Shown here in pieces: positions 26,311 to 42,757 of a stretch of DNA of 64,000 bases. The notes under the pieces were generated by a model. It saw nothing but the letters and a program-made list of their open reading frames with translations, searched no databases and was not told the origin of the DNA. Each line of letters begins with the position of its first letter. Within the stretch, counting starts at the first letter, position 1. The DNA comes from an uncultured Actinomycetes bacterium (GTDB lineage: Bacteria > Actinomycetota > Acidimicrobiia > Acidimicrobiales > Ilumatobacteraceae): the NCBI GenBank assembly GCA_903872155.1, contig CAIQJP010000046.1:1-64000 (forward strand), written 5' to 3'. The position numbers and the translations under genes were made by a program.

Positions 26311-27669
26311 TTAATCAAACTTTGGAGAAAGCGCGCCGAGATCGCGAGTTGCGATAACGCCTTTCCAGACGCCAGTCCCATATGCGACGTCGTCGGCAAG
26401 TGTGAGTGCGCAATATGAAACCGGATTAACCTTGGTTTTCTTTTCAAACCACTTTGTGAGTGCCGGAAGAATGCTGGCAACAAGAACGACACGACGACCG
26501 CGACGACTGAACAATGCAAGCATGAGTGCAAACGGCCACCATGTGCGAGTGATTGCCTGAGCAATCATGCGACCAGCGTGAATATTTCCGCGACCGGCAA
26601 GTCGCAGCGCAAGGATTCGGGAATCTGGTTGTGAACTGATTTTTCTTTCAAGGGCGACCGTTGAACCTGCGCCAATTGTTAGTCCAATTATTGGGTGACC
26701 AATTGCCAGTGCGCTCCAGGCCAATGCACTCCAACGATTGATTCGCAACGGAGTCGCTGCTCCAGGATGTTGTTGGTTGAGTGGGGCTGCGGCCGAGCCA
26801 TACGAAACCCGTTGTTTCCATGCATCAAGCAGCGAGCCACGCGGGCTGTGCAGAACTACGACTGAAGGTTCGTAACGACACACCACATCGGCTTCAAGGA
26901 GTCGCCATATGAGATCGACGTCTTCGCCATAACGAAAAGACTCATTGAAACCTTGATGTTGCCGTAGCAGTTCTGTACGAATCATGAGTGCCGCAGTTGG
27001 CACATATGAAACTCTCGAATTCTTGCGGATACGTGCGGGTTCGGGTCCAAGGTCAAGCGGTGATTCGCTTGCTTCGTAACGTTGCAACAAAGTTGAGCCA
27101 GGTTCACTGGCAATTCGTGGTGCGACGACTCCAACTGAAGAATCAGCAAAATGCTTGAGCAAGTTGATCCATGAATCATCAGAAAGCGAAGTGTCGGCGT
27201 CAAGGAAAAATGTGATCGGTGTTGTGATGTGATCGAGCGCTGTATTGCGAGCGACTGCCGGGCCTCCGGCATTGTCACGACGGATGATTTGTGCGCCAGC
27301 GATTTCCGCAAGCGCAGGCGACGAGCCGTCATCAACAATTAGAACTTTGTGCGCAGCGCAAACCTGTGCGACCAATTTGGAAAGCCTTTCAATGCTGCAG
27401 TTGAGTACTGGAATGACAACGGTGACTTCACTTGGTTGTACATGTCTAGTCATTGAATCAAGAATCGGATGAACCGCGCCAGCTTCAAGAAGACGCGTAA
27501 TCGTGCTCGCAGAACTGCTTGAAACTTCTTCTCGATTCTCTAAAGCCTCGAGAACTGAGCGGGCGGCTGATGAAAAACGAAAGACCTTGAGCGGTGACCC
27601 AGCAACAACTGTGTCACCTTCGGCGTTGGCTCGCCTCCACCACGAAGAATCGGTCTGATAACGAGTCAC
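26311..27669 (-). CDS. mftF: Mycofactocin glycosyltransferase MftF-like
   Basis: A 452-residue GT2 glycosyltransferase. An N-terminal non-catalytic part (GSPLKVFRFS..., about 1-80) is followed by the GT-A domain starting EVTVVIPVLNCSIERL. DDGSS, ADTSLSDD (DxD region) and GEDVDLIWRLLE are the donor and catalytic motifs. Hydrophobic segments near the C-terminus suggest membrane attachment. The whole layout matches MftF, which adds beta-1,4-glucose units to the mycofactocin redox cofactor. The assignment is strengthened by mftE ending directly at its GTG start (no gap). It closes a six-gene operon. Confidence 0.83.
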   Translation of the reverse strand: MTRYQTDSSWWRRANAEGDTVVAGSPLKVFRFSSAARSVLEALENREEVSSSSASTITRLLEAGAVHPILDSMTRHVQPSEVTVVIPVLNCSIERLSKLVAQVCAAHKVLIVDDGSSPALAEIAGAQIIRRDNAGGPAVARNTALDHITTPITFFLDADTSLSDDSWINLLKHFADSSVGVVAPRIASEPGSTLLQRYEASESPLDLGPEPARIRKNSRVSYVPTAALMIRTELLRQHQGFNESFRYGEDVDLIWRLLEADVVCRYEPSVVVLHSPRGSLLDAWKQRVSYGSAAAPLNQQHPGAATPLRINRWSALAWSALAIGHPIIGLTIGAGSTVALERKISSQPDSRILALRLAGRGNIHAGRMIAQAITRTWWPFALMLALFSRRGRRVVLVASILPALTKWFEKKTKVNPVSYCALTLADDVAYGTGVWKGVIATRDLGALSPKFD

Positions 27670-28329
27670 TTAAGAATTCCAGTGATCAAAGTCAGCGAGA
27701 AGGTCGTGGGCCCACTGATCAAGAAGTTTGAGTCCATCTGTTGCAGTTGCTCGTGTTGGGTCACCGAGGACCCCGTTGCTGCTGACTGCGCGAATACCAC
27801 CTGCTCGCATGGCGTCAATGATGTGCGCTAACGGCTGAGTATTGCCAACTTCGGCCAATGTCATATCAACTTCAAATGGCGACAATGCCAACATCACCGA
27901 GGTTTCAGCGTGACCAGCGTGAGTGTCGGTATCGGCGACTCCAGAGGGAGACCAGAAAAGAACATTTTGCTGATCGTGATCGAGCACTTTCTTTGCGGCC
28001 TGAATCGCTGGCGAATTGCCACCATGGCCGTTCACGAAAACAACTCCACCACACCAAGTCGCCGACCGCACAATCTCAATCAGCATTGAAGTTGTTGTTT
28101 CAGTACCAACCGACAATGTGCCGGAGAAACCTGAATGTTCACCACTTGCAGTAATGGGAAGCGGAGGAGCTAAATAGGTTTGTGCTCGTACTTGAGTGAG
28201 GCGATGACTCAGTTCAAGTGCAATACGCGTGTCGGTGTCGAACGGAAGATGCGGACCATGTTGTTCCCACGAACCTACGGGCACAACTAAGACGGGCCGA
28301 CTGAGACGCACCTCGTCGGCCTGAGTCAT
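27670..28329 (-). CDS. mftE: Mycofactocin peptidase MftE (creatininase family)
   Basis: A 219-residue creatininase-family metallohydrolase. The metal motif VGSWEQHGPHLPFDTD (18-33) supplies E22, H24 and D33-type ligands; VNGHGGN and HAGHAETS complete the site. This spelling is characteristic of MftE, which releases the C-terminal AHDP core from modified MftA peptide during mycofactocin synthesis. ATG at 28329 overlaps the etfB stop by four bases (ATGA). Its own TAA is directly followed by the mftF GTG. No mftA, mftB, mftC or mftD is present in this window. Confidence 0.85.
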   Translation of the reverse strand: MTQADEVRLSRPVLVVPVGSWEQHGPHLPFDTDTRIALELSHRLTQVRAQTYLAPPLPITASGEHSGFSGTLSVGTETTTSMLIEIVRSATWCGGVVFVNGHGGNSPAIQAAKKVLDHDQQNVLFWSPSGVADTDTHAGHAETSVMLALSPFEVDMTLAEVGNTQPLAHIIDAMRAGGIRAVSSNGVLGDPTRATATDGLKLLDQWAHDLLADFDHWNS

Positions 28330-29126
28330 GACTGATAACCCCACTCGCGCAATTTATTGACAATCAACTCGGCTGCTTCACGTGGCTCAAGATGAACGGT
28401 TTCTCCATGACCTTTGGCTGAAGATGTATCGGTGATCTGTTTCACGCGGTCGAGTGCAGAACTTCCGACAGGTGCCGCGATTGTTCGAGCACGGGGTCGG
28501 TAGGCGCGTGTTGGTGGATTTTCAACAGCGACATGATTGATCGTCACTATTTCAATGGCCTGTTTGTTTGCAGCCATTGAACCCTTGAGCGAGGCACGGC
28601 GTAAGCGGGCTGTTGATCCTTCGACCGACATCACTGCCTTGCCCTGAATTTCAAGTTGCTCACGACGTCCGCCGTCAAGGCGACGCAATGCTCTGATGGG
28701 ATGCAGAGAATCAGCTGGGACTTGAATTTCTACGAGACCGAGTGCTTGCGCAATCGAAAGTTCGGCCGCAATAAATGCTGGTACCGACCCCGAACCGCGA
28801 TCGGATGAATAGTCACCACACCAAATCAACGAACAATGCGCTACTGCTTGAGCGATTGCCCGGGCAATGACGGCACTGTCATGCGAACGATCAATGTCAA
28901 TACGAACCGCGCGATGGGCACCTCGGGCGATTGCGTCTCGTAGGACAGCCTCGGCGCCGACCGGGCCTGCGGTGACAACGATGACTTCGTCATTGGTATT
29001 TTCGGCAATGCGCAATGCATATTCGAGAGCAGCCTGATCGGCGTACGAGAATCCCATGAAACGATCGTCGTCAATGTCGGTTTGACCCGAAGCATTAATC
29101 CATTTCAGACATACGGCGATGGTCAT
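28326..29126 (-). CDS. Electron transfer flavoprotein beta subunit-like (EtfB/FixA)
   Basis: A 266-residue EtfB/FixA-family protein: MTIAVCLKWINASG at the start, GFSYADQAALEYALRI, and VVTAGPVGAEAVLRDAIARGAHRAVRI as the nucleotide-binding half. PAFIAAELSIAQALGLVEI corresponds to the family signature before the recognition-loop region. The frame is open upstream, but ATG at 29126 is the natural beta-strand start. With the etfA, fixC-like and fixX-like genes it forms a complete electron-transfer set. It begins 11 bases after the ferredoxin gene and overlaps mftE by four. Confidence 0.85.
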   Translation of the reverse strand: MTIAVCLKWINASGQTDIDDDRFMGFSYADQAALEYALRIAENTNDEVIVVTAGPVGAEAVLRDAIARGAHRAVRIDIDRSHDSAVIARAIAQAVAHCSLIWCGDYSSDRGSGSVPAFIAAELSIAQALGLVEIQVPADSLHPIRALRRLDGGRREQLEIQGKAVMSVEGSTARLRRASLKGSMAANKQAIEIVTINHVAVENPPTRAYRPRARTIAAPVGSSALDRVKQITDTSSAKGHGETVHLEPREAAELIVNKLREWGYQS

Positions 29127-29137
29127 TGCAACATCAC

Positions 29138-29473
29138 TCAGGTGCGGTGGAAGACGATGCCGTAGCCGCCTTCGGGGTAGGTCCAGGTGATAGCTCCTGC
29201 TTGATTGCAAACGAGATAGCACGTGCCGCATTCAAAGCAATTTTCGTAATTGAATAAAATGCCGCCGTCGCTGGTTGGAACAAAAAGGTTTGCGGGGCAA
29301 GCAACCACACATTCACGCGTTGTGCATCCACGACATGAATCGCCATTGACGGTGATATGGGCGCGTTCGTGAATACGAAACTCGGCGGTGTCGATGCGAT
29401 CTTGAAACGACATTTCAGCCCAGGTGTTATCGCGCTCAATATTGTTAGCGGCACGTAAAGATTCGAGTGACAT
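29138..29473 (-). CDS. FixX-like ferredoxin
   Basis: A 111-residue ferredoxin-like protein. Cysteines group as CRGCTTRECVVACP and CFECGTCYLVC, as in FixX and the ETF:quinone oxidoreductase iron-sulfur domain. One 4Fe-4S cluster is expected; the extra Cys may not all be ligands. It probably pairs with the FixC-like flavoprotein to pass electrons between ETF and the quinone pool. Its ATG overlaps the fixC-like stop by one base (TGATG). Confidence 0.87.
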   Translation of the reverse strand: MSLESLRAANNIERDNTWAEMSFQDRIDTAEFRIHERAHITVNGDSCRGCTTRECVVACPANLFVPTSDGGILFNYENCFECGTCYLVCNQAGAITWTYPEGGYGIVFHRT

Positions 29474-30774
29474 CAGCCAAATCCTTTCAGACCAGTGAGC
29501 GCATCGCGAACAAGATCCATCAATGAAATACCGGCCTTCTTGCGTTCTTCGCGCAAGATACGGCGAACACCCGGTTTTGGATGAGGATTTTCAACTCGGA
29601 ACATCCGCTCAACGATTCCGGTGACGAAACCTGGATATTTGTGTTGCACGCGATCGGACAAAACTAGATGCGGAATCTTGCGTAACTTCTTGTGATCTTT
29701 GAGTACGAAAGTCTCATTGAGTTTCTTGGTGTACGACTGCAATCCCGATGCCGAAGTGTTTCCAGCAGTAACAGCTTGCGCCGCAGATTGACCGGCATAC
29801 ATTCCACTGGCCATCGCAAAGTTGACACCTTCAAGCCAAATGCCAGCAGCCAAACACAATGCTGCGGCATCACCAGCAACAAGTAGTCCATCGGCAACCA
29901 TCTTGGGCATCATGTCGAGACCGGCTTCGGGAATGACGTGAGCGGAGTATTCGATCACTTCAGCGCCTTCGATGAGTGGGGCAATGGCGGGATGACGTTT
30001 GAGTTCGGCGATGATTTCTTCGGGACGCTTCTTTTGCGCCGACAACTTAGGGAGTTTCAACACGACGCCAAGAGCAATGGTGTCAAGGTTGGTGTAGATG
30101 AAGCCGCCGCCGTTGACACCAGATGTGCCACCAAGAATTTCAATGTCGACACCTTGATTATCACGAACACCGAAACGCTCGTCGATGACGCTCTTAGGAA
30201 GCGACAGAGTCTCTTTGACACCAAGTGTGTAATTGCTGGCATCAACTGATTTATAGAGACCAGCATCTTTGGCAATGAAACTGTTGACGCCATCACAGGC
30301 AATAACAACAGACGCAGTGAGGTCTCCGTCGGGACGATCGGTTGTGATGCCGTTGATACGACCTTGTGCATCGCGCAACAAACCGGTCACGGTCGTTGAA
30401 CAAATAAGTTCGGCACCGGCGGCTACTGCTTGTTGAGCAAGCCAGTTGTCAAAGTCGGGTCGGTACGCAGTTGCACCGTTGTACGGCGCTTGGCCCCACG
30501 CATTGCTGCGATAGTCAATGTTGAGGGCGCCAGTGTCAGACAGCAACATGGTGGAGCGACGAACAACCCAACGTTGAATTGGTGCATGCTCAAACCAGTC
30601 GGGGATGAGCTCATCAAGAATGCGCGGATAGATGACTCCGCCGTACATGTTCTTTGAACCTGGGAAAGGCCCGCGTTCAATGAGGACGACGCGCTTGCCG
30701 GCTTTGGCGGCAGCGATGGCAGCGCATGAACCAGCTGGCCCGGCGCCGACAACAATAATGTCGGTATCGGTCAT
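29473..30774 (-). CDS. FixC-like FAD-dependent oxidoreductase (ETF:quinone oxidoreductase type)
   Basis: A 433-residue flavoprotein of the FixC/ETF-QO family. The dinucleotide fold IIVVGAGPAGSCAAIAAAKAGKRVVLIERG is at the N-terminus (about 5-35), followed by PGSKNMYGGVIYP, typical of FixC. GLLVAGDAAALCL is the second FAD motif. The C-terminal region is hydrophilic and could be the membrane-contact part. It should accept electrons from the adjacent ETF. Overlaps: four bases with etfA (ATGA) and one with fixX. Confidence 0.9.
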   Translation of the reverse strand: MTDTDIIVVGAGPAGSCAAIAAAKAGKRVVLIERGPFPGSKNMYGGVIYPRILDELIPDWFEHAPIQRWVVRRSTMLLSDTGALNIDYRSNAWGQAPYNGATAYRPDFDNWLAQQAVAAGAELICSTTVTGLLRDAQGRINGITTDRPDGDLTASVVIACDGVNSFIAKDAGLYKSVDASNYTLGVKETLSLPKSVIDERFGVRDNQGVDIEILGGTSGVNGGGFIYTNLDTIALGVVLKLPKLSAQKKRPEEIIAELKRHPAIAPLIEGAEVIEYSAHVIPEAGLDMMPKMVADGLLVAGDAAALCLAAGIWLEGVNFAMASGMYAGQSAAQAVTAGNTSASGLQSYTKKLNETFVLKDHKKLRKIPHLVLSDRVQHKYPGFVTGIVERMFRVENPHPKPGVRRILREERKKAGISLMDLVRDALTGLKGFG

Positions 30775-31691
30775 GCCGCACCTACTTCAGAGTTGACGTT
30801 CATCAATTGTGCAAGTTCTTCAAGAACTGCGTTGGCGTCGGCGACAATTGCCAGATCGGCCATTTGCATCATGGGGCAGTGGGCGTCGGTGTTCACACTA
30901 ATGATGTGCTCTGGTTGACCAAGGCCACTGGTGTGTTGCACTGCGCCACTAACACCAAAGGCGATGTACAAATCGGGATCAACGACGACGCCAGTTGTTC
31001 CGATCTGACGTTCGTGATCTGCCCAGCCGCGATCGGTGATGACGCGGGTGACCCCCATTGATGCATCAAGAGCGGATGCAACATTTTGAAGTTGCACAAA
31101 CCGCTCGCCGCTTTCGAGTCCAGCACCGCCACCGATAATTCTTGGAGCTTCAGAAAGGTCCATCGTTGATGCATCGGGTGGCATGACTGCGACTGAAATC
31201 ACTGAAGCTTGAGCGGCATTTGTAGTCGGAACGATTTCGACGTGAGAGATCGTCGGTGTTGCTGAAACTGTGTCGACGCCGCGAATGCCAATTTGCAAAG
31301 TTGCGATGAATGTCTTGGTCGGCTGGAAATCAGCAATCGAGAGTCCGCCATGGCGCGCCACACTGACCTTGTGATCGGTGATTGAAATTGCTCCGGCATA
31401 CAGCGATCGACCGAGCGCATGGGCGAGATGAGGTGCGATGTCTCGGCCGTCTGGGGTGGCAGGCAGAATGACGGTTTCGTTGAGACGTCCAATCAAAGTG
31501 ATAGCAGCGATGATCTGTGAGGCGTTGACTTCGGCTTCGGCCAACCAGACATTGCTTGCGACTTTGGGAAGGTTTTCAAGTGCCTGTGAAGTTCCCGAAC
31601 CAATGAAGAGCGCGTCACCCGAAGCTTCACAGATGGCTTCATCGGCGCCTGCTGGGGCGACTCCATCACGGACGGGGATTACGGCAATCAT
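30771..31691 (-). CDS. Electron transfer flavoprotein alpha subunit-like (EtfA/FixB)
   Basis: A 306-residue EtfA/FixB protein and the first gene of the six-gene operon. The FAD-binding C-terminal half has GVSGAVQHTSGL, ISVNTDAHCPMMQMADLAIV and GVTRVITDRGW, all standard. One family motif is changed: the usual SGGRG reads GGGAG near residue 196, so the conserved Arg is Ala. The N-terminal domain is short and divergent. ETF carries electrons from dehydrogenases to ETF:quinone oxidoreductase; here the partner dehydrogenase may be mycofactocin-dependent (inference from mftE/mftF in the same operon). Confidence 0.87.
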   Translation of the reverse strand: MIAVIPVRDGVAPAGADEAICEASGDALFIGSGTSQALENLPKVASNVWLAEAEVNASQIIAAITLIGRLNETVILPATPDGRDIAPHLAHALGRSLYAGAISITDHKVSVARHGGLSIADFQPTKTFIATLQIGIRGVDTVSATPTISHVEIVPTTNAAQASVISVAVMPPDASTMDLSEAPRIIGGGAGLESGERFVQLQNVASALDASMGVTRVITDRGWADHERQIGTTGVVVDPDLYIAFGVSGAVQHTSGLGQPEHIISVNTDAHCPMMQMADLAIVADANAVLEELAQLMNVNSEVGAA

Positions 31692-31732: not shown

Positions 31733-32386
31733 TTAGACCGCGGTTTCTTGGGTGGCTTTGGCTGTGAGCTTTTTCTTCACAAACCGCACAAGTTCAATCG
31801 CAAAGGTGACGGCTAGTGCTGCAGCAAACGCGACAATAAAGGCCTTGGTATGGTCGTTTTCAAATTTGGTTCCAAATGAATAGCCCAAGATCGCGGCATA
31901 CGACGCCCAAATGACAGTGGCGACACTGACCCATCCCATGAACCAACTTTGCGACTGTTTGGTTAAACCGGACGACAAGGTGAGGATGGTTCGACCGCCT
32001 GGGATAAATCGAGCCGTGATGAGCAAGAGGCCGCCACGTTCTTCAATTTGGTCAGCGGCCCACTTGAGTTTCTTGGCTGTTGATTCTTTTTTGGCAGCCC
32101 GGCGTTCAACCAGGCGACTCGCTCGTCGGCCAATTTGATAACTGAGGTTGTCACCGATGAAGGCTCCAAGAGCCCCAGCGATAATGACAAACACGATGTT
32201 GTACGGAGCAATGCCAGCGCTACTCGCGGCGACTCCGCCGATGATTACTGTCGTCTCGCTAGGGACAATAGGAATCACCGAATCTAAGAGAGCGATGACC
32301 AAAATGACGGCGAGGAACCACCAGTGTCCAGAAACTCGGTCGAGCCAATCGGTGAGACTATTGATGACTCCTGAAGCCGCAAGCAC
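31733..32386 (-). CDS. DedA-family membrane protein
   Basis: A 217-residue DedA/SNARE-associated-type protein with about five hydrophobic segments. The family signature RFIPGGRTILTLSSGL is present, as is an early PIVPSE re-entrant segment (VPSE with acidic residue). DedA proteins act as flippases or proton-coupled transporters for lipid carriers such as undecaprenyl phosphate or phosphatidylethanolamine. The tail is Lys-rich. The start is GTG at 32386. It lies 41 bases upstream of nothing on its strand, and follows the etf operon promoter region, so it is a separate unit. Confidence 0.85.
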   Translation of the reverse strand: MLAASGVINSLTDWLDRVSGHWWFLAVILVIALLDSVIPIVPSETTVIIGGVAASSAGIAPYNIVFVIIAGALGAFIGDNLSYQIGRRASRLVERRAAKKESTAKKLKWAADQIEERGGLLLITARFIPGGRTILTLSSGLTKQSQSWFMGWVSVATVIWASYAAILGYSFGTKFENDHTKAFIVAFAAALAVTFAIELVRFVKKKLTAKATQETAV

Positions 32387-32437
32387 ACGACGACCTTAGT
32401 CGGGAATTTTTCAGGATGTTGATCTAGTCTGCGCACC

Positions 32438-32824
32438 ATGGCAACTATTCGTGAGATTGTGATTGATTGTTCAGACGCCGATGCGATGGCAACTTTTTGG
32501 GCGGGAGCACTCGAGTTTGAGTACGTCGGTGCAGCCGGAAGTTATCGGGCTTTGAACGACCCGTCCGGTGGACCAAAGTTGATCATTCAACAAGTTGATG
32601 AACCTAAGTTGGTGAAGAACCGCGTGCACTTCGATCTAGAGGCTGTTGATATTCGCGCTGAAGCGCGACGTATGGAAGCACTCGGTGCAGTGTTGCTCAA
32701 TGAGCGGCGACCGATTCAGGAACACAAAACGCAGTGGATGGTTTTGGCTGATCCTGAAGGAAATGAATTTTGCATTTGTCAGATTGGAAAAATACCTGAG
32801 GGCGATGACGGCTATCCGGCCTAG
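32438..32824 (+). CDS. VOC/glyoxalase-like protein
   Basis: A 128-residue vicinal-oxygen-chelate protein with two beta-alpha-beta-beta-beta modules: REIVIDCSDADAMATFWAGALEFE and RVHFDLEAVDIRAEARRMEALGA. It ends in the typical MVLADPEGNEFCIC. This fits the glyoxalase-like subgroup common in actinobacteria, whose substrates are mostly unknown. It overlaps the convergent surface-protein gene by four bases. Confidence 0.83.
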   Translation: MATIREIVIDCSDADAMATFWAGALEFEYVGAAGSYRALNDPSGGPKLIIQQVDEPKLVKNRVHFDLEAVDIRAEARRMEALGAVLLNERRPIQEHKTQWMVLADPEGNEFCICQIGKIPEGDDGYPA

Positions 32825-35800
32825 TCACCGATAGAGGTATCTTCGCTCATCGGGTGAAAATCGCCGTGGCCTTTTCGCATTTCGGCAAAGGCGTTGGCGA
32901 AATGGAGGAATACAGCGACACCCGTAGCAATCAGTGCAATCTTTCGGGTTTGCCCTGAAAGTGTGAAGAGTACGATCACGCTTCCAGCGAGCGTAAATGA
33001 GAGCGCGCTGATCTCTTTAACGATCAAACTGATAATTCTTTGAGGGGTCATTTTCGCCATGTTCGTTCCATTCCCTATTTGGTTATTGAGATTACTTGCA
33101 CCTGATTTTCGGGCCATCATTTTTCGAGCTTGACGACGAGCGATTCGCTCCATCTCAAGGTCGGTCACACGGGTGGAAGGAGATCCACCACCGCGATCGT
33201 CTCGGTCTCCCGATGAGGATGACCCTCCGCCTGATGAAGAACCCGACGTGGATACCGCGCCGGCACCAGCAGCAATAGTTGAAACAGCTGTCGTCGCAGC
33301 GATCAACGAACGGCGTCCACCGACATCAAGGTTGGAGCCAACTGGCACATAGTCATCGAGTCCGCCGCCGTAAACATCGATTGTTGCTTCGAATGTGTTT
33401 TTGATTTCGGTCGGCGCATCGCTGACTGCAGCCACGAGTTCGGCTTCTTGTTCGGCGGTGAGATCACCAACCGGAATCTCGGCAAATATTTCGGCCGCCT
33501 GTGACGTGTCAATACTTTCTAGAACTTTCGCACTGGTTGCAAGATCGGTGGCTTGTGACGCTGAAACCTCGCCCGCCAAGATTTGGTCAACTGCGGCAGC
33601 GACTTGTTTTGGTGAGACATTTTCTGATTCAAGTGCAGTCAAAACTTCGGCCAATTGTTCGTCGGTGATTTCGTCTGGGATGACGACTTGTGGTGTAGTC
33701 GTTGGCGCAAGTGTGCTTGTTGTCGTGGGTGCGGTCGTCGTGGTGCTGGTCGTCGTTGTTGGCGGCAACGTTGTTGTCGTTGAAGTTGTGGTTGAAGTTG
33801 TGGTCGTCGGTGGCAACGTTGTTGTTGTTGTCGTAGATGTTGGGGTGGGTGGTTCAGTTGTTGTGACTACCTGAACAATGAGAGGTTCGGTCGTTGTTGG
33901 CGCAACAGTCGTTGAAGTCGTTGATGTTGAGGTTGTTGTCGGAACTTCGGTGGTTGTGCTCGTTGTGGTCGGTGCAAGAGTCGTCGTGGTTGTCGTCGTC
34001 GTCGTCGTAGTTGTAGTTGTTGTCGTGGTTGTCGTCGTCGTAGTTGTAGTTGTTGTCGTGGTTGTAGTTGTGGTTGTGGTTGTGGTTGTGGTTGTAGTTG
34101 TAGTTGTAGTTGTAGTTGTAGTCGTGGTGGTTGTCGTTGGCATTGACGCGTCGGTCACGAACTCAAGATCGACTCCGTAGTTCGTCCCGGTGCGCCCGCT
34201 CGGGAAACCACTGACGTCAGATGTGTAGTTGTAATGACCGCCCTGATCAGACAATGAGAGTGGTCCGCTTGATTGACGCGGAAAATCTGGTTGATTAGCA
34301 AAAATATGATTTTCAAGTGAGAAGCCGACGGTGAAGGTTGCACCAGCAGTAATTCGCACTGGGGTATCAAAGACAACTTCCTGCCAACCATTGGCAGTTT
34401 CATTTGTGTAGGCCTTTTGGGCCAGAACATTTCCGCTGGCATCCCAAACTGTTCCTGTATGTGGACCGGTGTTATTTGGGTCTTTGGCGAAGAGCACTTT
34501 GGTGACGTACCCACTCTCAGAAGTCGTGAGTCGGAGACCGACATTGAGGGGAAAGTTGTAGGTGGGTGAAAAACTTGCTGGATACCAGCCGTGCAACATG
34601 GTGTTTGCACCGGGTGAGATGGTTCGAACAGGAGTGAGTACACCAGTAAATCCATTGATGAGCGTCGGAACAGATCCCCAGCAACGAAGTTCACCGATTG
34701 AATTGAGCGCGCATGTGGTGTATGGCCCAGCAGCAATGGCGGTAATGGTTCCTGAAAGTCCCACCACAGAAGTGGGCACGGTTACCGGACCACTTGCACT
34801 TCCAAGTCCCAGTTGGCCTTCAGTGTTGCGTCCCCAACACTTCACGTCATTGGTATCAAGCAGCGCGCAATAGTGTTCGGTGCCACCGGTTAACGCGATG
34901 ACGCCACTCGTGAGACCTGTGACCTGCACGGGAGTAGGGCTTCCCCAAATTTGCCCATTACCTAAAGTTCCGCGTTCGCTGGTTCCCCAACACTTCACTC
35001 CGCCATCGGTATTGACTGCGCAGATTGTCTTATATGTTCCGGCGACTGAAGCGATCGAAGTCATTCCGGGTATCGCAGTAGGAGCAGCCCAAAAAGGTGC
35101 ACTGGAGTTTCCTCCGTCCCAAGTACCGTCGCCAGCTTTGCCGAAGCCGACATAGCCCCAACACTTCAACACACCAGATTTCATGACAGCACATGTTGTT
35201 TCACTTGCTGAGTTAATTGAGGCAACAGGGCCACCTAGACCGACAACGTCGACGAGTGTGTCTGAGCCGACTTGAGTCCCGTCACCAAGCGTTCCCCAAC
35301 GGTTGTCGCCCATGCATTTGACGGTTCCTGCAGTCATCAAAAAGCATGTCGCCCCGGATTCTCCAACTTCAACACTTTGAACGCCAGTTGTTGCTCCTTG
35401 AACGTCGACTGGAATGAGCGAGAAGTTATTTGGTACTCCGCCGCCAACACCGCTGCCCCAACATTTGGCACCGCCGGCGATTGTGACAGCACACGTTGAG
35501 GCAGCCCCTGCTGAAACTGAGCGGACATCGCTTGTCAGGCCAACGACATCTACAAATGACGCACGATCGATCTCGGTCCCGTCGCCGATTCGCCCACCAG
35601 GTCCGTATCCCATGCACTGAACGCCGTGATTCACGGTGATTGCACACTTTTGATATGGGCCGCTAGAAATTGAGCCCTGTTGCAATAAGTACTCACTATC
35701 GATTGACGTATCGCTTGTATCGGCTGACGCTCGATCAAAAAATCCTGAGTTCAATCCGATGAGGCACAGCAAAAGAGGCAGAAACGTGAGTACTCGTCGC

Positions 35801-35829
35801 CTCTTCTGAATTCTTCGCCACTTCGCCAT
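32821..35829 (-). CDS. Large RCC1-repeat surface protein with 53-Thr linker
   Basis: A 1002-residue exported protein. A basic signal peptide ends near DRASA (36). Residues about 45-395 are RCC1-type propeller repeats (CALLDTNDVKCWGRNTEGQLG and many CAV...CWG units). About 400-560 looks like a DUF4082-type beta-sandwich (GYVTKVLFAKD, ITAGATFTVGFS). An uninterrupted run of 53 Thr follows at 565-617, then further Thr/Pro blocks to about 710, a helical domain (ITDEQLAEVLTALES), a Ser/Gly stretch and at least one membrane helix near the C-terminus (about 945-985). It is probably cell-wall or membrane anchored, with a display or adhesion role (inference). Confidence 0.85.
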   Translation of the reverse strand: MAKWRRIQKRRRVLTFLPLLLCLIGLNSGFFDRASADTSDTSIDSEYLLQQGSISSGPYQKCAITVNHGVQCMGYGPGGRIGDGTEIDRASFVDVVGLTSDVRSVSAGAASTCAVTIAGGAKCWGSGVGGGVPNNFSLIPVDVQGATTGVQSVEVGESGATCFLMTAGTVKCMGDNRWGTLGDGTQVGSDTLVDVVGLGGPVASINSASETTCAVMKSGVLKCWGYVGFGKAGDGTWDGGNSSAPFWAAPTAIPGMTSIASVAGTYKTICAVNTDGGVKCWGTSERGTLGNGQIWGSPTPVQVTGLTSGVIALTGGTEHYCALLDTNDVKCWGRNTEGQLGLGSASGPVTVPTSVVGLSGTITAIAAGPYTTCALNSIGELRCWGSVPTLINGFTGVLTPVRTISPGANTMLHGWYPASFSPTYNFPLNVGLRLTTSESGYVTKVLFAKDPNNTGPHTGTVWDASGNVLAQKAYTNETANGWQEVVFDTPVRITAGATFTVGFSLENHIFANQPDFPRQSSGPLSLSDQGGHYNYTSDVSGFPSGRTGTNYGVDLEFVTDASMPTTTTTTTTTTTTTTTTTTTTTTTTTTTTTTTTTTTTTTTTTTTTTTTTTTTTTLAPTTTSTTTEVPTTTSTSTTSTTVAPTTTEPLIVQVVTTTEPPTPTSTTTTTTLPPTTTTSTTTSTTTTLPPTTTTSTTTTAPTTTSTLAPTTTPQVVIPDEITDEQLAEVLTALESENVSPKQVAAAVDQILAGEVSASQATDLATSAKVLESIDTSQAAEIFAEIPVGDLTAEQEAELVAAVSDAPTEIKNTFEATIDVYGGGLDDYVPVGSNLDVGGRRSLIAATTAVSTIAAGAGAVSTSGSSSGGGSSSSGDRDDRGGGSPSTRVTDLEMERIARRQARKMMARKSGASNLNNQIGNGTNMAKMTPQRIISLIVKEISALSFTLAGSVIVLFTLSGQTRKIALIATGVAVFLHFANAFAEMRKGHGDFHPMSEDTSIGD
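33979..34137. repeat. Threonine-codon microsatellite
   Basis: 159 bases of GTN-type triplets on the plus strand encode 53 consecutive Thr on the minus strand. Within it a 33-base block (starting GTCGTCGTCGTAGTTG) is present twice in tandem, and later come GTG-GTT and GTA-GTT alternations. This shows recent slippage and makes length variation between strains likely. Confidence 0.9.
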
Positions 35830-35935: not shown

Positions 35936-37918
35936 CTAGATCGATGAACCAGCGCGTTCGCCGTCGACGACAGCAGCATGCGCCCGGCGAGGTGCGACGC
36001 AGTCACCAACGCGTTCAACACTCACACCAGCATTCTTGAGGTCGTTGTACAACCACTCAACCGGGCTCGGCGGAACGGCAAGCACCACCCAATCGGGGCG
36101 GCGGGTTTGATTTACGCCAGTGGGGTGATGCAACAGCGTGAGTTCGCCATTTGCAAAACCCATCGGCACTAAGTCGGTTGATTGCACGATGCCTTTTGCA
36201 CCAGCGCGCATCCACCAGTTTTCCATGTCGAGGGTTATGCCGAGATCTTGCCCAACGACCATTCCGGGGGTCACGATTTCAACATTGCAACCACGATCGG
36301 CCAACACTTCAGCGGTCGACGTGGCGTGATGGAATCCGATTTCATCAATCACAACAACCGAGTCACCAGATTGCGGCCCGCCCATGAGAGCGGAGCCATC
36401 AAGAATGGCGCGCACATCACACACGCGATTGGCAGTTTCGTCAGTGCTGGCATCGGGGACCCACCACGGACGTGTTGGCTCGGCGCCGGTTGCAACGATG
36501 ACGTGATCGGGTTTGGTCTCTTCAACTAAACCTGGCCAAACACCCGAGCCATAAACAAATGAAACTCCGAGACGATTGCATTCGGCGAGTTGATTACGGA
36601 TCATGTCGCCAAATTCGGCACGGTTCGGAACACTTGCAGCGATGCGCACTTGACCACCGGCAACGGGTTCTTTTTCGTACACCGTGACTTGATGACCTTT
36701 GCGTGCAGCAGCAATTGCCGCTTGCAGACCAGCCGGACCAGCACCGGCAACCATCACTTTTTTCGGCTTAGAAGTGATCGCAAGATGATTGTCAACTCGC
36801 CATTCGTTTTCGCGTCCAGTGCGCGGATTCTCAATGCAACCCAACCAACGGTTGAGTCCCATACGACCAACACATTCTTGATTGCAGCTCAAGCACAAAC
36901 GAATTTCGTCAGTCGCGCCGGCTCGAGCCTTGATGGCAAAGTCGGCATCGGCGATTTGTCCGCGCACAATGCCGACTAAATCGCATTGGCCTTCGGCGAG
37001 TGCACGCTCGGCTTGCAACGGATCTTTGAAACGGCCAACGCCAACAACTGGAAGATCAACTGCTTTACGAATTGCGGCCGGAATGAACATGGCATAGCCC
37101 GGAGGAATATGCATGCTGGCTTCAATCATGAACAAGCTGGCAGTGGCGACACCGATCGATGTGTTGATGTAATCAACTTGGCCAGTTGCTTCCACAATCT
37201 TGGCGACTTCAACTGCTTCATCAATCGTTGTTCCACCATCAATAAATTCGTCACCGCACAAGCGCACACCAAGTGCTAAACGGTTACCGATGACATTGCG
37301 AACTGCGGCAACAATCTCGACCAGAATGCGTGCACGATTGACAAGCGAACCGCCGTATTCATCGGTACGACGATTGGTGGCGGGTGATAAGAAGCCACGA
37401 ACGATTGATGAGTGGCTGCACTGCAGTTCAATACCGTCAAAGCCACCTTCGGCACAATGTTCGGCAACGAGCGCGTAACCCGCGATGATCTCATCAATTT
37501 CTGCGTGCGTGACTGCTTTAGGAACTTCGCGAAAGAGGGGATCGGCAACAGCCGATGGAGCCCACACTGGCAAGCGACTGAACATACTGCTGGCCTGACC
37601 ACCGTTGTGGTTGATCTGGGCAAAGATCGGCACGCGATGACGATGGACAGCATCGGTGATGCGCTTGTAGTCAGGGATCACGTCGCGATGAAAACCGTGA
37701 ATCAGTTTTTCGTAGGGCCAGTCGGTGGGGTGCGTGCTGTGCTCTTCGGTGATGATGAGCCCGGCGCCGCCCGCTGCACGCGCCGCGTAGTAGTCGGCAT
37801 GTTGCTCGGTGGGTTTGCCATCACGGGCATAGTTAGTGAGGTGAGCGCTAAAGACAATGCGGTTGCGGGTCGTGACTGGCCCGAGTTCAAGAGGTGTCCA
37901 TAAATAGCGGTAGCCCAC
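35936..37918 (-). CDS. FadH/old-yellow-enzyme-type NADH:flavin oxidoreductase
   Basis: A 660-residue two-part enzyme. Residues about 1-350 are an old-yellow-enzyme TIM barrel (LGPVTTRNRIVFSAH, FAQINHNGGQA, GFDGIELQCSH, RGFLSPATNRRTDEYGGSL). The cluster-binding Cys set is LCLSCNQEC plus a further Cys in LGCIENP. The C-terminal half is an FAD/NAD(P) domain (VMVAGAGPAGLQAAIAAARKG). This is the architecture of 2,4-dienoyl-CoA reductase FadH and trimethylamine dehydrogenase relatives. A named subgroup of such enzymes is associated with mycofactocin; proximity to mftEF and resemblance make that possible but not shown. Divergent from the SDR gene. Confidence 0.87.
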   Translation of the reverse strand: MGYRYLWTPLELGPVTTRNRIVFSAHLTNYARDGKPTEQHADYYAARAAGGAGLIITEEHSTHPTDWPYEKLIHGFHRDVIPDYKRITDAVHRHRVPIFAQINHNGGQASSMFSRLPVWAPSAVADPLFREVPKAVTHAEIDEIIAGYALVAEHCAEGGFDGIELQCSHSSIVRGFLSPATNRRTDEYGGSLVNRARILVEIVAAVRNVIGNRLALGVRLCGDEFIDGGTTIDEAVEVAKIVEATGQVDYINTSIGVATASLFMIEASMHIPPGYAMFIPAAIRKAVDLPVVGVGRFKDPLQAERALAEGQCDLVGIVRGQIADADFAIKARAGATDEIRLCLSCNQECVGRMGLNRWLGCIENPRTGRENEWRVDNHLAITSKPKKVMVAGAGPAGLQAAIAAARKGHQVTVYEKEPVAGGQVRIAASVPNRAEFGDMIRNQLAECNRLGVSFVYGSGVWPGLVEETKPDHVIVATGAEPTRPWWVPDASTDETANRVCDVRAILDGSALMGGPQSGDSVVVIDEIGFHHATSTAEVLADRGCNVEIVTPGMVVGQDLGITLDMENWWMRAGAKGIVQSTDLVPMGFANGELTLLHHPTGVNQTRRPDWVVLAVPPSPVEWLYNDLKNAGVSVERVGDCVAPRRAHAAVVDGERAGSSI

Positions 37919-38831: not shown

Positions 38832-40019
38832 TCAGTGAGCGGCGGGGGCGGTGCCGTCAGCTTTTTTCTTCGGTGGTGGAACTCCAACCGAAACTGACTT
38901 CTCAGCCCACTCTGGCCAACGACGACGACTCACAATGCTGAGAGTGCGCAACAACTTCATCGCGACTTCGTCTTCTTGTGCTGGACGCGATTCAATCACG
39001 CCATCTTTGATCATGCGCGAAATCACTTCTTCGCCAAGTTCGGTACGAACAATGGTGAGAGTCCAGTCGTTGTCTTTGCCAATACCGCCCGTTGAGATGT
39101 CGGCGTGTTCGGCTGCGAAGTCGGGGCAGTTCTTGCAACCTTCGCGCGTCCATTGGTGACATTCTTTGAGATCAATTTCGTGGAACGAACCGTCCTTCAT
39201 CCAAATCTGGAAGGCGCCCTTAATGTTCATCTTCACCATGTCTTGCTTCTTCAAGCCGTACTTGGCTTCGAAGAGCTCTTCAAAGATGGCATCATCAAAA
39301 GTCTTTGAACACAGCAAGCCAATGTTGAACAAGAAAGGCTTGCCTACTTTGCCGGCCTTGCGATCCCACATGACCGGCGGCGATGAGGTCTGGCAACCCA
39401 TACCAACAAGGGCCAACTTAGAAAGGCCTTGTTCTTTGGCCTCACGCAATGCGAGAGGGTTCGCACAATAGGTGTATCGCGAGCCTGCAGTTGCCAAGAC
39501 TTCTTCTTTGTTACGAGCGAGAGCCGGCTTGGCCTTCCATGCATCGTCATTTTCAACGCCGCTCACAAGGGCGCCTTCGATGTAGTCGTTCTCCATCAGC
39601 CAAATCAACATGGCCGACACGAATCCACCGTCTTGACCTTTTTTGTGCTGCACCTTGTCGGTGGCACGAGTCAACAACAGTTGACGCCAGATGCCAGACA
39701 TTTCTTCGGGCTGACGGGTGCGACCAAAGAGGTGGTTGTCGGCTGATTCTTCCCACTTGCGGAATCGCGGGCAGGCACGGGTGCAGGTGGTGCAACCCTT
39801 TTCGCCGTGAATGCAGTTGTCGAGACCGAGTTCTTCTTCAATGTGGAAGGGCTTGTACTTACCTTCTTCGTGTTCGTAGCCGATCACGTCGTGGGGGCAG
39901 GTGACAACACAGCCAGCGCAACCCGTGCACAGACCAGTGGTTATGACCTCTTCGTAGAGTTCTTTCCACTGGGCGGTCCAGCGTTCGGCTTTTGGCGGTG
40001 CAGACTCGGTAATTGTCAT
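38832..40019 (-). CDS. F420 hydrogenase/dehydrogenase beta-subunit family protein (FrhB-like)
   Basis: A 395-residue iron-sulfur flavoprotein of the FrhB/FpoF family. Cysteines C31, C34, C37 and C41 (CTGCAGCVVTCP) form one 4Fe-4S motif and C69, C76, C79 and C83 a second. The FrhB_N/C parts follow, with KKGQDGGFVSAMLIWLMEN, ATAGSRYTYCANPLAL, VGMGCQTSS and CKNCPDFAAEHADISTGGIG. Such proteins transfer electrons between F420, flavin and iron-sulfur partners. No hydrogenase subunits are nearby, so this is a stand-alone type. ATG at 40019 is preferred over the ORF start upstream. Confidence 0.88.
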   Translation of the reverse strand: MTITESAPPKAERWTAQWKELYEEVITTGLCTGCAGCVVTCPHDVIGYEHEEGKYKPFHIEEELGLDNCIHGEKGCTTCTRACPRFRKWEESADNHLFGRTRQPEEMSGIWRQLLLTRATDKVQHKKGQDGGFVSAMLIWLMENDYIEGALVSGVENDDAWKAKPALARNKEEVLATAGSRYTYCANPLALREAKEQGLSKLALVGMGCQTSSPPVMWDRKAGKVGKPFLFNIGLLCSKTFDDAIFEELFEAKYGLKKQDMVKMNIKGAFQIWMKDGSFHEIDLKECHQWTREGCKNCPDFAAEHADISTGGIGKDNDWTLTIVRTELGEEVISRMIKDGVIESRPAQEDEVAMKLLRTLSIVSRRRWPEWAEKSVSVGVPPPKKKADGTAPAAH

Positions 40020-40098
40020 GGCTTTCAATCTACGCTGAGGACAGGTGGTCTCGGGTAGCCGAAGTGGCACTAATGATCACAGAATTTTGAGGAACACC

Positions 40099-42757
<2,659 letters not shown>

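Follow-up and report, generated by a model that had tools for sequence, protein, structure and literature searches.

The window (the whole stretch of 64,000 nucleotides that was analysed) carries on its minus strand a six-gene operon at positions 26311-31691, consisting of etfA, a fixC-like gene, a fixX-like gene, etfB, mftE and mftF (Table 1). The first-pass annotation had placed these six genes there on one strand, and NCBIfam scores confirm their families; for the fixC- and fixX-like genes, which stay below the NCBIfam cut-offs, the family is given by the nearest match. The naming of the glycosyltransferase as MftF is likewise upheld by its model score. The gene for OYE2 is found on the same strand, 4.2 kb upstream of etfA. 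An SDR adjoining OYE2 was considered as a mycofactocin-coupled SDR and rejected, since it reaches only 127 bits on TIGR03971 (against 300).

Table 1. Features of the locus in window positions, with model scores in bits against the cut-off of the model.
Feature	Position	Strand	Evidence
mft-type etfA (ETF alpha)	30771..31691	-	NF038209, 357 vs 240
fixC-like ETF:quinone oxidoreductase flavoprotein	29473..30774	-	Below every NCBIfam cut-off; nearest PRK10157 FixC, 334 vs 610
fixX-like 4Fe-4S ferredoxin	29138..29473	-	Nearest PRK15449 FixX, 51 vs 166 (below cut-off); position conserved
mft-type etfB (ETF beta), from ATG 29126	28326..29126	-	TIGR04503, 229 vs 200
mftE (peptidase)	27670..28344	-	TIGR03964, 255.5 vs 172
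mftF (glycosyltransferase)	26311..27669	-	TIGR03965, 350 vs 280
OYE2, mycofactocin system FadH/OYE family oxidoreductase 2 (FMN / 4Fe-4S / ADP-binding)	35936..37918	-	TIGR03997, 934.6 vs 793
Genes between OYE2 and etfA: VTT/DedA-like, 128-aa ORF, large RCC1-repeat protein	31733..35829		Outside system

With etfB read from ATG 29126, the junctions along the operon measure -4, -1, +11, -19 and 0 bases. Four of the five therefore overlap or abut (one less than counted earlier), and the remaining one is the 11-base gap that had correctly been given as the largest. The start of mftE is more likely the in-frame ATG 28329 than GTG 28344, which changes the fourth junction to -4. In the 30 loci of at least 19 kb, taken from 80 relatives' loci, etfA is accompanied by fixC, fixX and etfB in all cases, by mftF in 29 and by mftE in 28. 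This shared company shows that the six-gene packing is no accident.

Mycofactocin, whose textbook pathway runs via MftD, serves as a redox cofactor in mycobacteria and in many further microbes. We noticed none of mftA-D in the window. Genes mftA, mftB and mftC were found on another contig (L008; MftA 49.8 bits against 25, MftB 95.9 against 33, MftC 630 against 265), which also bears OYE1 (TIGR03996, 689 against a cut-off of 628) and two NDMA-dependent ADHs. The suggestion to look for mftA-D elsewhere thus led to the first three genes but not to mftD, whose best match in the whole genome scores 30 bits (TIGR03966, cut-off 470.85); genomes of this type are in general without mftD over the cut-off. 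For mftG there is no match at E 1e-60 in the present genome with TIGR03970 (cut-off 387 bits), the single MftG model searched; the available part of PMC11778925 names two further ones. The pathway had been described as split or partly borrowed. It is indeed split here, but we saw no signs of borrowing. A genome of the same genus (G071, locus L020) holds both halves in one contiguous cluster, with less than 1 kb between OYE2 and etfA, and the split therefore looks like a local rearrangement.

Distribution of the block and mftD

The main new point of this analysis is that the block of OYE, ETF and FixCX genes alternates with mftD. In a class sample of 218 genomes, 43 of them positive for mftC, etfA exceeds the NF038209 cut-off of 240 bits in 13 genomes, and the next-best ETFs reach at most 185 bits. 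All 13 are mftC positive, as the annotated link between this ETF clade and mycofactocin would have it; within this class the clade is thus not widespread in genomes lacking mft genes. Gene mftD passes its cut-off in 28 genomes (27 with mftC), never together with etfA. Two genomes (G134 and G214) show a divergent OYE-etfA-fixC-fixX block (L041 and L043), which together with the 13 etfA genomes gives 15 of the block type. The 43 mftC-positive genomes are accordingly divided into 27 of the mftD type and 15 of the block type, with none in both and one (G197) left unassigned: a near-perfect alternation. OYE2 is over its cut-off in 13 block-type genomes, slightly below it in the other two, and over it in none of the mftD type.

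Weaker relatives of MftD, scoring 152-306 bits (cut-off 471), occur in 8 of the 15 block-type genomes and likewise in many genomes without mftC. The genome-wide search with the OYE2 model also returned OYE2 relatives of 493-544 bits in five mftD-type genomes, which is the score range of OYE1.

Sampling is mostly of one class of one phylum. A phylum sample of 396 genomes shows etfA in 8, mftD in 44 and both in none; as 7 and 18 of these, respectively, are already in the class count, 1 and 26 are new. Among 49 further genomes bearing this ETF (overlap with the class sample checked by one criterion only), 48 are without mftD over the cut-off and one, Pseudonocardia bannensis, has both systems. 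They were drawn from 50 of 80 named ETF loci; of the other 30, 7 match genomes already counted and the remainder are mostly shorter contigs. Of these 80 loci, 59 hold mftB, C, E or F; among those of at least 10 kb the number is 51 of 56.

Plasmids are divided in the same way: of 12 with mftC (counted by mftC, among plasmid records only), four bear mftD and eight the block, two of the latter being haloarchaeal (pHTUR01 and pCBA1230-01). The four mftD plasmids are absent from the 36 OYE2 plasmid records and from the 6 etfA records. Gene order is mftA-B-C-mftD-E-F in Streptomyces NBC_00080 and mftA-B-C-OYE1-OYE2-etfA-fixC-4Fe4S-etfB-mftE in Streptomyces NBC_00564. Like MftD, the block thus lies between mftC and mftE, with the same MftA core; unlike the block, MftD belongs to an unrelated family (TIGR03966, FMN-dependent dehydrogenases) and is encoded by one gene instead of six. 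Since mftD is in the same stretch as mftC in only 8 of the 18 mftD-type loci examined, the argument from a shared slot is valid for part of the clusters. On the Streptomyces SAT1 plasmid OYE2 is split across two frames. OYE2-like genes on Haladaptatus and Rhodococcus plasmids (about 35% identity) lie outside mft clusters and were not counted as block members, and 26 other OYE2 plasmid records show 33-36% identity and stand outside the plasmid count.

On the mftC tree, at least six swaps between the block and mftD are forced by supported branches and 11 are seen on the best tree; this tree is without G197 and has long branches for G067, G214, G134 and G173, of which G067 and G214 are of odd composition. 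As the two labels are mutually exclusive by assignment, the sign test on the tree serves as a count of independent pairs. Fisher p-values take no account of relatedness, and we do not rely on them. The MftA tail ends in CGVY in all 38 block-type loci (L020 and L065 being one place) and in 30 of 31 mftD-type loci; in the last one no tail was found.

Sequence and fold of the OYE and ETF components

OYE1 and OYE2 are paralogues, and the conserved pattern of one is distinct from that of the other. The top sequence matches of both are reductases, with 1ps9 ahead of the amine dehydrogenases, and FadH/2,4-dienoyl-CoA reductase and 2-naphthoyl-CoA reductase (1ps9 and 6qkg) are closest by both sequence score and fold Z. 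The glycine stretch GCGGIG of 1ps9 is, however, replaced by DPIGG in OYE1 and by DEIGFHHATS in OYE2. The latter lies in the second Rossmann segment, a part that matches histamine and trimethylamine dehydrogenases in the alignment and is without the glycine-rich NAD(P)H motif GxGxxG. Across 38 OYE2 sequences there is no variation at D525 or GFH 528-530, nor at cysteines C342, C345, C349 and C361 (C-x2-C-x3-C-x11-C), which we take to be 4Fe-4S ligands.

Trimethylamine and histamine dehydrogenases (1djn and 3k30) resemble OYE2 in combining an OYE barrel with 4Fe-4S and ADP-binding domains and in lacking the NAD(P)H glycine motif. They work with an ETF partner, and here ETF genes are adjacent; trimethylamine dehydrogenase (TMADH) passes its electrons to ETF (PMC8097209, available part). 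Identity in the fold match is 22-29%. The cysteine of histamine dehydrogenase, presumably the site of 6-S-cysteinyl FMN, is missing at the aligned position of OYE2 (HLTN against HCNG). OYE2 may therefore work like these dehydrogenases, but we do not class it as a member. The fold search with the predicted OYE2 model (pLDDT 74.5) was dropped as a group classifier: Z favours the reductases (36-38 against 33-35 for the amine dehydrogenases) whereas TM-scores are reversed (0.80 for histamine dehydrogenase, 0.75-0.76 for the reductases).

The electron-bifurcating Fix/EtfABCX system (7koe) has the same four kinds of components, and the best solved relative of the fixC-like protein is its FixC (7koe_C, 268 bits; ETF-QO 2gmh 76 bits). 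The ETF subunits studied here differ in belonging to separate mft-specific NCBIfam families and in accompanying mft clusters. By its own sequence, etfB comes closest to 1o94_C, the TMADH partner ETF, whereas the family profile is nearest to 4kpu_B (97 bits), which we take to be a bifurcating ETF. The EtfA profile also favours other ETFs than the TMADH partner. A clear assignment of mft-EtfB to the TMADH-partner type was therefore rejected.

Proposed role and alternatives

The alternation with mftD, the recurrence of swaps, an unchanged core peptide and, in several clusters, a shared slot together suggest that OYE1, OYE2, mft-EtfAB and FixC/FixX probably replace MftD jointly in an MftD-independent biosynthesis of mycofactocin. 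MftD uses oxygen in vitro. It is a flavoenzyme that deaminates AHDP to premycofactocin (steps as in PMC11778925, available part). In block-type genomes MftA-B-C would give the cyclised Val-Tyr core (the core peptide is conserved, the chemistry is that of the literature) and MftE would release AHDP. The OYE pair, as FadH/TMADH-class flavin/iron-sulfur enzymes without the NAD(P)H glycine motif, would then oxidise the ring C-NH2 to an imine, hydrolysis of which would leave the keto-amide, and MftF would act in the glycosylation step. Judging from the families, electrons would flow from OYE through EtfAB and FixC/FixX to the quinone pool; reaction and electron path are both predicted from sequence. 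The same module might oxidise reduced mycofactocin too, at the same carbon. Only tentatively do we extend this to a second, non-orthologous premycofactocin synthase, shared by bacteria and haloarchaea. As an amine-dehydrogenase module tied to respiration and built of two OYE-type Fe-S flavoproteins, a dedicated ETF and FixCX, it would also recharge the cofactor at that carbon and deliver both sets of electrons to quinone; MftD and MftG would then be dispensable, and maturation would do without O2.

The operon had first been read as regenerating the cofactor through an ETF:quinone route. As the main function, with the block re-oxidising reduced mycofactocin towards quinone as a counterpart of MftG and another enzyme deaminating AHDP, this is unlikely, although OYE, ETF and FixCX do form an electron-transfer set. 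MftG, of another protein family (GMC), provides a similar link between mycofactocin chemistry and the respiratory chain. It is missing from about 25% of the genomes with mftC, and its replacement is called an open question (PMC11778925, available part). Moreover, the surroundings of the block carry no mftG annotation in the five Streptomyces and two haloarchaeal plasmid clusters that are annotated, against two of four mftD plasmid clusters that have the gene. Within the class, however, the block alternates with MftD, a biosynthetic enzyme, and not with MftG, which argues against regeneration as its primary role. None of 49 genomes searched, 43 of them mftC positive and of both types, has mftG over the cut-off, and both MftG and the block are missing from the 27 of the mftD type (OYE2 below cut-off). 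The mftG search covered 18 of the further ETF-bearing genomes; G237 and G266 combine MftG with the block and are without mftD over the cut-off. A plain stand-in for MftG was rejected on these grounds, and no other oxidoreductase or aminotransferase is common to all five annotated Streptomyces clusters. Re-oxidation is a possible secondary role. That one module does both jobs, acting at a single ring carbon on the AHDP amine and on the alcohol that reduced mycofactocin bears there, would agree with the two oxidations of the redox centre described in the available part of PMC11778925 (the shared carbon is our reading) and with two OYE paralogues of distinct pattern; given the two mftD-less block-type genomes that retain MftG, we consider it quite improbable.

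A FixABCX-like bifurcating complex that provides MftC, a radical SAM enzyme, or other enzymes with low-potential electrons would suit the nearest matches of FixC and of the etfB profile. It leaves the loss of mftD, the tight link with OYE2 and the functioning of MftC in mftD-type genomes unexplained, and is very improbable. Many of the genomes are MAGs of one class, and relatedness inflates the counts; still, it is extremely improbable that shared ancestry or incomplete assemblies alone produced the alternation, considering that the mftC tree shows at least six swaps independent of each other, that complete plasmids of two domains are partitioned in the same way, and that 41 of the 43 mftC-positive genomes reach a completeness of 90% or more with contamination of no more than 5%.

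Replacement of MftD by the block remains our preferred reading. In the open-licence literature we found no paper joining mycofactocin with an electron transfer flavoprotein, which is not a claim of absence from print; the one paper found to mention it along with old yellow enzyme concerns coumarin degradation. Compact natural cassettes, for example on Streptomyces plasmids, suit direct testing. If genomes do build mycofactocin without MftD, there would be two chemically different solutions for the redox-centre step, one of them tied to respiration. This would account for MftD not being universal, as noted in 2011 (PMC3023750, available part), and would give a function to four families (two ETF subunits and two OYE types) whose NCBI names refer only to their link with mycofactocin.

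The operon and the rest of the pathway

The six genes from etfA to mftF, which the first-pass annotation had placed on one strand, are indeed present. The products of etfA and etfB both score above the cut-offs of the NCBI 'mycofactocin-associated' ETF models, as do those of mftE and mftF with their equivalog models, and the junctions measure -4, -1, +11, -19 and 0 bases (the fourth becomes -4 if the ATG at 28329 is used). The OYE2 gene was not among the genes listed by that annotation. OYE1 and OYE2 are the mycofactocin system FadH/OYE family oxidoreductases 1 (TIGR03996) and 2 (TIGR03997), and OYE1-OYE2-etfA-fixC-fixX-etfB is referred to here as the block.

Features of the window around the ETF operon
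Feature	Position	Strand	Basis
etfA, fixC-like, fixX-like, etfB, mftE, mftF (in this order)	26311-31691	minus	
RCC1-repeat large protein with DUF4082 domain	32821-35829	minus	PF13540, PF00415
OYE2	4.2 kb upstream of the etfA operon	minus	TIGR03997, 935 bits (cut-off 793)
FrhB/F420-type protein	38832-40070	minus	NF006807, 207 bits (under cut-off 269)
Molybdenum hydroxylase-like gene	40045-42387		PF20256/PF02738

OYE2 and etfA are kept apart by a VTT/DedA-like gene, a short ORF on the plus strand and the RCC1-repeat gene, in which threonine codons form a very long tract (about 33900-34150); this is not so in G071, a genome of the same genus. The FrhB/F420-type gene, flanked by an SDR gene and the molybdenum hydroxylase-like gene, hints at F420 metabolism next to mycofactocin.

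The window is contig C46 of a 2.8 Mb assembly (G000; 165 contigs, 97.4% complete). Given that mftA-D are absent from it, the pathway had been supposed to be split on the chromosome or partly borrowed. A split holds for mftA, mftB and mftC, which are found on contig C42 (locus L008) together with OYE1 (TIGR03996, 689 bits against a cut-off of 628) and two NDMA-dependent alcohol dehydrogenases (TIGR03989, 550 and 554 against 440), but not for mftD: a profile search of the genome with the model of this pre-mycofactocin synthase (TIGR03966) found none, the top match reaching 30 bits. Because G071 carries mftA-B-C-OYE1-OYE2-etfA-fixC-fixX-etfB-mftE-mftF in a single stretch of ~13 kb (L020), the separation over two contigs looks like a local rearrangement.

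Alternation of the block with mftD

Searches of one set of 218 class genomes for mftC, mft-etfA and mftD found these above model cut-offs in 43, 13 and 28 genomes, respectively. Comparison of the three lists shows mftC in all 13 mft-etfA genomes, so that in this sample the ETF clade keeps company with mycofactocin genes, as the first-pass annotation had proposed to check, and mftD in none. Similarly, 27 of the 28 mftD genomes carry mftC. The exception (G165) has a strong MftD at 683 bits, yet no mftC over the cut-off; this is either a lone mftD or an assembly gap. Three mftC genomes are in neither list. Two of these, G134 and G214, have a divergent form of the block, OYE1-OYE2-etfA-fixC-fixX, whose etfA scores below the cut-off; it adjoins mftC at locus L041 and is on a contig other than mftC's at L043. 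The third (G197), fragmented and 88% complete, was assigned to neither the block type nor the mftD type. G134, with its divergent ETF, has a class-III aminotransferase gene (L041, 9934-11199, minus strand; PF00202, 296 bits) adjoining mftA, and another route of AHDP deamination could be imagined there.

OYE2 was sought in 49 genomes (the 43 with mftC plus six without mftC over the cut-off). Of the 13 etfA genomes, 12 have it over the cut-off, as does G214; in G173 (gene cut by the contig end) and G134 it lies slightly below, and it exceeds the cut-off in none of the 27 mftD-type genomes. In five of the latter (G067, G141, G208, G202 and G027) proteins related to OYE2 score 493-544 bits against the cut-off of 793, the range where OYE1 scores. 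Weaker MftD relatives (152-306 bits against a cut-off of 471) occur in eight block-type genomes and also in many without mftC.

In further samples, mftD is found inside none of 80 named loci carrying this ETF, which rank best among 256 relatives, and over the cut-off in one of 49 whole genomes having this ETF. This is Pseudonocardia bannensis (G258; loci L135, on G258:C75, and L123), the sole genome found with mftD and the OYE/ETF block together. Three Amycolatopsis genomes (6.8-7.9 Mb) yield at most 359 bits to the mftD model. A phylum sample of 396 genomes holds etfA in 8, mftD in 44 and both in none; it shares 7 etfA and 18 mftD genomes with the class sample, so 1 and 26 are new.

Among plasmid records, mftC is present on 12, with mftD in four (484-577 bits) and the block in eight: six from Streptomyces, plus the haloarchaeal Haloterrigena turkmenica and Halolamina. 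OYE2 has a match in 36 records and mft-etfA in six, and the four mftD plasmids are in neither set. An archaeal OYE as query (E 1e-90) retrieves seven plasmid records, namely both archaeal records and five from Streptomyces; on the sixth Streptomyces plasmid, SAT1 (L167), OYE2 is broken over two frames and unannotated. The Streptomyces clusters without MftD lie on linear plasmids (L164-L168), and four of the five annotated adjoin polyketide or other secondary-metabolite genes. On the haloarchaeal plasmids (L169, L170) OYE-etfA-fixC-ferredoxin-etfB lies near mftF/glycosyltransferase, mftC, mftB2 and mftA; MftA ends in IDGICGVY, mycofactocin-coupled SDRs are numerous and a further OYE-like gene is ~10 kb off. 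On Sphingopyxis macrogoltabida plasmids (matches H57 and H58), which have no mftC match, one stretch shares 51% identity with MftD over 72% of its length.

Gene position and history of swaps

The gene order is mftA-B-C-D-E-F in Streptomyces NBC_00080 and Tsukamurella. In Streptomyces NBC_00564 and NBC_00334, the genes after mftA-B-C are OYE1-OYE2-etfA-fixC-4Fe4S-etfB, with mftE next in the former and SDR, mftF and mftE next in the latter. A common slot for mftD and the block is not general, because mftC lies in the same stretch at only 8 of 18 mftD loci examined in the class. In an mftC tree built from 27 rows of each type, block and mftD (with warnings on four long rows), the type switches 11 times, at least six of them on well supported branches, and six independent pairs on supported branches are all opposite in direction. 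The MftA tail CGVY is shared by all 38 block-type loci and 30 of 31 mftD-type loci (no tail was found in the remaining one); therefore the same peptide is presented to the following enzymes.

Probable replacement of MftD and a possible mechanism

The tie of these ETF and OYE families to mycofactocin is already known as annotation, since NCBI names them by this link. Neither the pattern of alternation with MftD nor the function that follows from it turned up in the open-licence literature searched, which is no proof that they are unpublished.

MftD deaminates AHDP to premycofactocin, and MftG, a GMC-family dehydrogenase, re-oxidizes the cofactor (PMC11778925). Over the cut-off, mftG is found in none of 49 genomes, 43 of them mftC genomes of both types from the class (top score 329 bits against 387), so mftD-type genomes of the class do without mftG and without the block. 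Among 18 block-type genomes searched for mftG, three have it: two with no mftD over the cut-off, IMCC26207 (G237) and Amycolatopsis pithecellobii (G266), and one with mftD, Pseudonocardia bannensis. The block tracks the absence of MftD, not that of MftG. The plasmid picture is less clean than that of the genomes: mftG is annotated in two of four mftD clusters and, in the stretches shown, in none of seven annotated block clusters.

The oxidoreductases common to all five annotated Streptomyces clusters are OYE1, OYE2, EtfAB and FixCX, and no others, counting the split and unannotated OYE2 of SAT1. The closest solved relatives of OYE2 are 2,4-dienoyl-CoA reductase (248 bits), naphthoyl-CoA reductase (247), histamine dehydrogenase (213) and trimethylamine dehydrogenase (TMADH; 168). 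Its second Rossmann segment, VVVIDEIGFHHATSTAE, aligns with VVVYDDDHYYLGGVVAE of histamine dehydrogenase; D525, G528-F529-H530 and the four cysteines of 4Fe-4S type do not vary among 38 OYE2 sequences. OYE1 has DPIGG at the place of GCGGIG in 2,4-dienoyl-CoA reductase (1ps9), and this OYE1 motif is kept as DPiGgp in 34 sequences. These segment motifs and cysteines point to enzymes that would work without NAD(P)H feed and may have ETF as natural acceptor, by analogy with the TMADH-ETF complex (PMC8097209). However, OYE2 has no counterpart to the histamine dehydrogenase cysteine, comparison of its predicted fold is not decisive and the mft ETF profiles fail to favour the ETF that partners TMADH, all of which speaks against a simple TMADH label. 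FixC is nearest to the FixC of Fix/EtfABCX (7koe).

Summarizing, it is well supported that the block takes over the function of MftD. As to the exact reaction, we infer that the OYE pair would oxidize the amine of AHDP, and that the electrons would pass via ETF and FixCX to quinone.
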